From Candidatus Aenigmarchaeota archaeon LH_S4 (lineage in GTDB: Archaea > Aenigmatarchaeota > Aenigmatarchaeia > QMZS01), in assembly GCA_023659975.1 (NCBI GenBank), contig JAGXOI010000004.1, forward strand, positions 1-36,888: a stretch of 36,888 nucleotides of DNA. The letters are read 5' to 3'. Positions 4,319 to 30,268 of the stretch are shown piece after piece (positions within the stretch are counted from its first letter, which is position 1; the number at the start of each line of letters is the position of its first letter). The notes under the pieces are model-generated. The model did not search any database. It worked only from the letters and a program-made list of their open reading frames with translations, and was not told where the DNA came from. Made by a program: the position numbers and the translations under genes.

Positions 4319-4478
4319 AGCCTTGGGCGAGATTTGATTACAAAGTTAATAATCTAGCGATTAAAAGACTTACTCGCGACCTGCTGCTTTCCCCTCTAAA
4401 ATACATTTATTTCTTACAAACCCTTTTTATAAAAAGGCTCATACGAGGCAGCTGCTCTACCAACTGAGCTACCAAGGC
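4319..4478 (-). tRNA. tRNA-Thr(CGU) with two introns (anticodon-loop intron 4389-4441 and T-loop intron about 34 nt within 4332-4372)
   Basis: Minus-strand exons: GCCTTGG TA GCTC AGTTGGTA GAGC A GCTGC CTCGTA [53-nt intron] A GCAGC AGGTC GCGAG T [34-nt intron] TCAAAT CTCGC CCAAGGC T. After removing both inserts a 73-nt canonical tRNA remains, all four stems fully paired, T-loop TTCAAAT, anticodon CGT, U73 as in archaeal tRNA-Thr; no encoded CCA. Confidence 0.9.
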
Positions 4479-30153: not shown

Positions 30154-30268
30154 AATTTAATCCTTTTAAAAAAACTTCAATCAAAAAAAGAAATTGGTTA
30201 GGTTTTCGCTCAAGCCTTTTTTATAAATATATCCAATAAAAGGCTCGACTTAATCCAAAATCAGTTTA

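Follow-up and report, generated by a model that had tools for sequence, protein, structure and literature searches.

Introns in the anticodon loop and T loop of a tRNA-Thr(CGU) gene from an Aenigmatarchaeota genome whose readable tRNA genes are all interrupted

INTRODUCTION

The intron positions described in archaeal tRNA genes include 53/54, 56/57 and 59/60 (PMC4090602). Thermoproteales carry on average 0.84 introns per tRNA gene, and Pyrobaculum calidifontis has 71 introns in 46 tRNA genes (PMC8450103). Work cited in PMC4090602 proposed that introns of the Thermoproteales transpose. In the Asgard lineages Atabeyarchaeia and Freyarchaeia 92-95% of the tRNA genes are interrupted, according to passages of PMC11291895. 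Relaxed forms of the BHB splicing motif are, in the published cases, cut efficiently only by (alpha-beta)2 and epsilon2 enzymes (PMC6379350), and their cleavage has been linked to a Crenarchaea-specific loop (CSL) or an ARMAN-specific loop (ASL) of the splicing endonuclease EndA (PMC6379350; PMC12397907).

Here we describe a tRNA-Thr(CGU) gene of a member of the Aenigmatarchaeota (DPANN). It lies on a stretch of 36,888 nt that was analysed as a whole (the window); the closest matches of the MCM protein encoded in the window are from Candidatus Aenigmatarchaeota MAGs (73-82% identity). Like the Thermoproteales (e.g. Pyrobaculum), the source genome has short introns without reading frames, with BHB-type pairing and with several introns per gene, similar introns are common to different tRNAs, and T-loop positions range from 53/54 to 59/60. 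Unlike the Thermoproteales, it belongs to the Aenigmatarchaeota branch, all its readable tRNA genes are interrupted, 28 of the 34 in the T loop, and its EndA lacks a CSL. Its 63 introns in 34 genes compare with the 71 in 46 of P. calidifontis (PMC8450103). Frequent non-canonical positions and several introns per gene are shared with the Atabeyarchaeia and Freyarchaeia, but these are an unrelated lineage, and the passages on them in PMC11291895 describe no T-loop dominance, whereas the T loop is the main site here. In ARMAN-2 and Nanoarchaeum equitans, which are small DPANN archaea too, tRNA genes are also disrupted and BHB motifs relaxed; the enzymes of these two are, however, epsilon2 with an ASL, or two-gene (alpha-beta)2, whereas ours is a single EndA of 221 aa with neither ASL nor CSL. 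Among the open-access papers listed in literature searches, none had a title or abstract that describes tRNA introns in Aenigmarchaeota or Aenigmatarchaeota. The T-loop intron of the threonine gene is of a known kind (relaxed BHB); what is new is the genome-wide saturation of the readable tRNA genes, the preference for the T loop and the plain EndA.

MATERIALS AND METHODS

The source genome (G000) has 779 kb in 103 contigs and is 72% complete; the window is its contig C48. N bases occur in 49 of the 103 contigs (~74.5 kb in total), and the readable part amounts to 705 kb.

A BHB motif has a 4-bp central helix between exon and intron, flanked by 3-nt bulges: four exon bases, separated from the 5′ cut by two more, pair with four intron bases that stand at the same distance from the 3′ cut. 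Both strands of G000 were searched with a purpose-written tRNA finder, which tolerates introns in the D, anticodon and T loops. The census combines the finder with inspection and with a targeted search that added four genes; for 6 of the 34 genes the limits were set partly by hand. When choosing splice positions the finder gives a bonus for BHB central pairing, therefore the counts of 4-bp central helices are somewhat inflated; we judge the bonus not large enough to explain their excess. The finder does not simply invent introns, since in loci of other members of the class it called 26 of 39 tRNAs intronless. In G000 the 28 top matches, all scoring at least 42.9, were interrupted tRNAs. Two lower matches (37.8 and 33.5) were also tRNAs, which had been mis-parsed, and the top match not recognised as a tRNA in the whole genome, both strands included, scored 33.4.

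Orthologs of tRNA-Thr(CGU) were sought in the family by an acceptor/A-box pattern and then parsed. A pattern match in G008 was rejected as a tRNA: it resembles a protein-coding stretch and did not parse. In the MCM loci of relatives the finder detected no tRNA-Thr.

RESULTS AND DISCUSSION

Structure of the tRNA-Thr(CGU) gene

The earlier note on this DNA had read the minus strand as a tRNA-Thr(CGU) gene with introns at 37/38 and in the T loop. Its coordinates were confirmed (Table 1), and the orthologs described below support the reading. Exon 1 consists of GCCTTGG TA GCTC AGTTGGTA GAGC A GCTGC CTCGTA, exon 2 of A GCAGC AGGTC GCGAG T, and exon 3 of TCAAAT CTCGC CCAAGGC, after which comes U73. 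Removing both inserts restores a complete mature tRNA with the anticodon loop CUCGUAA and the T loop UUCAAAU. The perfect stems that the earlier note had claimed were found again: all four are fully Watson-Crick in a standard 72-nt body plus N73.

Table 1. Features of the tRNA-Thr(CGU) locus, in window coordinates
Feature	Position	Strand	Description
tRNA-Thr(CGU) gene	4320..4478	(-)	159 nt; spliced body 72 nt; N73 = U at 4319
Exon 1	4442..4478	(-)	acceptor 5′ strand, D arm, anticodon stem 5′ strand, CGU, to A37
Intron 1	4389..4441	(-)	53 nt, canonical 37/38; may slide by one base
Exon 2	4372..4388	(-)	A38, anticodon stem 3′ strand, variable loop, T stem 5′ strand, U54
Intron 2	4338..4371	(-)	34 nt, 54/55, inside T loop
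Exon 3	4320..4337	(-)	remaining T loop (UCAAAU), T stem 3′ strand, acceptor 3′ strand
PRC-barrel protein, 92 aa	3918..4196	(+)	neighbour, convergent with tRNA gene
S26e-type ribosomal protein, 90 aa	4521..4793	(+)	neighbour, divergent from tRNA gene

With a finder score of 52.3, the third best in G000, against 33.4 for the top non-tRNA match, a chance match is excluded. The expectation that standard scanners would miss the gene held: on the whole window ARAGORN reported 0 tRNAs and Rfam 0 matches. Group I introns were rejected as an explanation of the inserts. A group I intron has a catalytic core and is usually over 200 nt long; the inserts have 34 and 53 nt, and the window gave no Rfam match.

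Intron 1 starts with a GAGCCUUUUUAUAAAAAGGG hairpin, which is similar to the GAGCCTTTT repeat family of the genome, and its predicted central helix has three of the four base pairs at the best register. In intron 2 the exon bases GCGA (49-52) can pair with the intron bases UUGU ending two nucleotides before the 3′ splice site (4 bp, two of them wobble). The palindrome noticed earlier in this intron, TAATC-GCTA-GATTA, is present, and in the RNA an inner AGU/ACU helix would enclose the hairpin UAAUC-GCUA-GAUUA. The outer helix of the 54/55 intron is irregular and has a C-A mismatch, which places it outside the strict hBHBh′ motif; it was therefore classed as relaxed BHB.

Orthologs of the threonine tRNA in related genomes

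Three relatives have the gene interrupted at the same two sites (37/38 and 54/55). Exons and introns of the G007 gene are identical to those of G000, whereas the introns have 13 and 20 nt in G004, and 43 and 34 nt in G005. The C31-G39 pair of the anticodon stem in G000 is replaced by U31-A39 in G004, a compensatory change. The T-intron partner of GCGA is UUGU in G000, UCGC in G004 and UCGA in G005 (4, 4 and 3 bp), and the inner AGU/ACU helix beside the central helix is kept in these three diverged T-loop introns. In two more distant relatives the T loop is intact: the G001 gene has a D-loop intron only, and the G002 gene is uninterrupted. To judge from the sequences, this pattern of conservation of exons, sites and helices is what is expected of a working spliced gene.

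One could also regard the T-loop insert as a permanent extension of the T arm of the mature tRNA rather than an intron. In its favour, the minimum-energy fold has room for both the mature T stem and the internal hairpin. Such an extension is nevertheless hard to reconcile with the normal 7-nt T loop of the same tRNA in G001 and G002. Moreover, the insert varies in length from 20 to 34 nt and its removal exactly restores the loop TTCAAAT/TTCAAGT, and an exon-complementary 4-mer is found at the 3′ end of 24 of the 29 T-loop introns of G000. We consider a T-arm extension very improbable.

A second alternative is that the locus is a dead copy of a tRNA-Thr gene disrupted by two unrelated insertions, the real tRNA being encoded elsewhere. 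Two insertions in one gene would fit a pseudogene, and a genome that is 72% complete and has ~10% of its bases unreadable leaves room for another copy. In the readable part of G000, however, the finder and the targeted and pattern searches did not find a second, uninterrupted tRNA-Thr(CGU), and the predicted BHB pairing is present; the earlier note had named such a copy, together with lack of expression or of a BHB-like fold, as the sign of a pseudogene. The perfect exons, the compensatory changes between species and the interruption of the same two sites in G004, G005 and G007 also speak against it. Finally, all other readable tRNA genes are interrupted too, and if they were dead as well, the cell would have no tRNAs. 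We give the pseudogene hardly any credence.

The locus is thus very probably a functional single-copy tRNA-Thr(CGU) gene, whose transcript would mature by losing two protein-spliced BHB introns, one at 37/38 and one at 54/55. What can be read directly in the sequences is the exon structure, the intron boundaries, the pairing, the conservation and turnover among relatives, and the EndA and RtcB genes. From these we infer that tRNA-Thr(CGU) and the other tRNAs of G000 are transcribed, cleaved and ligated. In the predicted precursor the 3′ end of the intron would pair with exon bases immediately before the 5′ splice site to form the 4-bp central helix, the partner being the T-stem nucleotides 49-52 in the case of the T-loop intron. 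EndA would cut within the bulges flanking the central helix, and RtcB would ligate the exons, leaving the T stem free to form with its true partner. Some observations count against this reading. The central helix of intron 1 falls one pair short of four, and the T-loop motif has an irregular outer helix. For the T-loop intron, a competing fold that keeps the mature T stem is favoured over the BHB fold in G000 (-9.1 vs -6.9 kcal/mol) and in G005, and only in G004 are the two equally stable. The z of -1.84 for the minimum-free-energy fold of the G000 precursor is not informative by itself. G000 also encodes tRNA-Thr(UGU), which may read ACG by wobble, so the tRNA-Thr(CGU) gene need not be essential.

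Turnover of introns can be seen in a second tRNA. tRNA-Ile(GAU) is intact in G004 and G005, and is interrupted in the T loop in G006 (49 nt), G008 (100 nt) and G000 (71 nt). Intron turnover is therefore fast. Close relatives whose copies of one tRNA are intact, interrupted once or interrupted twice allow gain and loss of introns to be traced directly.

Introns in the tRNA genes of the whole genome

The threonine gene is one example of a genome-wide pattern, not an isolated oddity. From the 705 kb readable part of G000 we recovered 34 tRNA genes, all of them interrupted by one to three introns of 14-342 nt. There are 17 introns in D loops, 17 in anticodon loops and 29 in T loops (28 genes), 63 altogether; the first parse gave 62, and the number rose when tRNA-Val(GAC) was re-read with two T-loop introns. 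The Rfam tRNA model found only eight tRNAs above the cutoff in G000, and these already looked interrupted. Nearly all tRNAs of G000 escape ordinary gene finders, because every readable gene is interrupted, most often in the T loop. Standard annotation sees almost no tRNAs in such a genome, and this affects completeness estimates, codon studies and arguments about minimal genomes in DPANN.

A full 4-bp central helix can be formed by 14 of 17 D-loop introns, 11 of 17 anticodon-loop introns and 24 of 29 T-loop introns (23 of 28 in the first parse). Shuffling of the intron letters in the first parse gave expected numbers of 0.66, 0.49 and 0.92, respectively. In seven D-loop, four anticodon-loop and eight T-loop introns all three adjacent inner positions are paired as well, with fewer than 0.1 expected per class.

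T-loop introns of G000 span positions 53/54 to 59/60, with the threonine intron at 54/55. These positions were already known (PMC4090602); the division into two sites is drawn here from the pairing. At site A (59/60, ~18 introns) the exon bases UUCA/UUCG (54-57) pair with UGGA, UGAA or CGGA at the intron end; AA|N and AA|U are left as bulges, and the outer helix is the T stem. By its predicted pairing, site A is topologically equivalent to 37/38, as in both a 5-bp stem is followed by four loop bases that pair, two that bulge out and then the cut. At site B (53/54 or 54/55, ~11 introns including that of tRNA-Thr) the central helix is built from the T-stem bases 48-52. The T stem therefore cannot form before splicing, and there is no regular outer helix.

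In the tRNA-Val(GAC) gene, G000:C37:36950-37120 (-), an intron of 26 nt at 53/54 and one of 46 nt at 59/60 apparently interrupt the same 7-nt T loop, and a further intron lies in the D loop.

Splicing enzymes

G000 has an RtcB gene and one EndA gene. The EndA protein, whose architecture bears on the cleavage of T-loop introns, has 221 aa and combines PF02778 with PF01974 (N-terminal and catalytic domains). Its best solved relatives are Methanocaldococcus jannaschii 1a79 and Nanoarchaeum equitans chain 3iey_A. Tyr151, His167 and Lys199 form the catalytic triad, as judged by homology, and do not vary across the family alignment. A second EndA subunit was not found at permissive thresholds in six genomes of the family. 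The EndA loop CFGKIKDDKNELSL is short and has no insertion relative to Sulfolobus chain 2cv8, thus no CSL. The ASL is also absent from G000 EndA; within the class only two enzymes, the fused ones of G013 and G019, show its Y-K motif. A basic loop between the catalytic Tyr and His, resembling that of the N. equitans subunit, was considered as a CSL substitute and rejected: it is present also in members of the class with mostly normal tRNAs and, being common to most of the class, does not track intron load.

A T-loop intron had been taken earlier to imply a splicing endonuclease of broad specificity. This stands in part: the 54/55 site has no regular outer helix, but introns at 59/60 can form a strict BHB like those at 37/38, and the sole EndA found has no CSL- or ASL-type insertion. 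Excision of site-B introns might still need a dedicated broad-specificity endonuclease or a second subunit that escaped detection. The published enzymes that cut relaxed motifs efficiently are all (alpha-beta)2 or epsilon2 (PMC6379350), an adjacent alpha/beta pair or a fused EndA occurs in G015, G021, G018, G019 and G013, and the basic Tyr-His loop is like that of the N. equitans subunit. We nevertheless think a special enzyme unlikely, though clearly less so than the two alternatives weighed above. Even with permissive searching, a single PF01974 gene was found in each of G000, G001 (96% complete), G002, G004, G005, G008, G011 and G023, the enzyme lacks a CSL-type insertion, and the basic loop does not distinguish intron-rich members of the class from those with mostly normal tRNAs. 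If the plain EndA does splice the site-B introns, G000 would be an exception to the link between relaxed-motif cleavage and CSL or ASL. Complete interruption of the readable tRNA set, chiefly in the T loop, offers a natural test of the idea that special EndA loops and intron diversity evolved together, since the intron-laden genomes here have a plain single-gene EndA.

Within the class (loci L236-L255) EndA occurs as a single gene, as adjacent alpha and beta genes (G015, G021) and as a fused gene (G018, G019, G013). The EndA proteins of the family (L001:1135-1800, L142-L150) have a lysine-rich N-terminal tail of ~20 to >100 residues.

Intron families and hairpin repeats

The introns form sequence families common to different tRNAs and sites. 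One family is shared by Gly(CCC), Gly(UCC) and Val(CAC), another by the D-loop intron of Leu and the T-loop introns of Val(UAC) and Tyr. Beyond the tRNA genes there are related hairpin repeats as well, some arranged in tandem and some within the 23S rRNA gene. As hairpin families are common to introns, the 23S array and intergenic copies, a mobile hairpin element may feed the growth of introns.

These observations suggest a wider scenario, which we put forward tentatively and with rather more doubt than confidence. In part of the Aenigmatarchaeota, spreading BHB introns may have invaded the whole tRNA set by way of the T loop, where the near-invariant TTCR would offer them a universal landing site at 59/60 that shares its geometry with 37/38. 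A single-polypeptide EndA without CSL or ASL would remove even the relaxed introns of site B, and the mobile hairpin element may contribute to intron growth.

The array in the 23S rRNA gene (AAGCCTTTT...AAAGGCTT; G000:C15:27078-27160 (-), L036:6621-9717) lies near the peptidyl-transferase region and is probably an rRNA intron. The 16S gene looks long too, with 1553 nt matched to a 1478-position model. In the window a copy of the 23S-type repeat (GAGCCTTTTATTGG...AAAAGGCTTGAGCGAAAA) is found at 30203-30245, apparently intergenic. Long anticodon-loop introns are present in tRNA-Trp(CCA), G000:C56:1059-1471 (+) (342 nt, including an N gap) and in tRNA-Gly(UCC), G000:C16:10017-10466 (-) (305 nt). 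Both consist of tandem or nested repeat copies, as if introns had inserted into introns.

Interrupted tRNA genes in the class

Three genomes of the class sample, with 32-34 strong tRNA matches, look normal. G000, G001, G011, G019, G023 and G024 have 0-8 strong matches despite mostly high completeness; G019, G023 and G024 were judged from match counts only. Intron-heavy tRNAs occur in another family of the class too: in G011 (45% GC), with 40% of the genome scanned, every tRNA with a good score is interrupted, four in the T loop. G024 is 87% complete and has no tRNA match at E <= 1e-8; it is possibly even more interrupted than G000.
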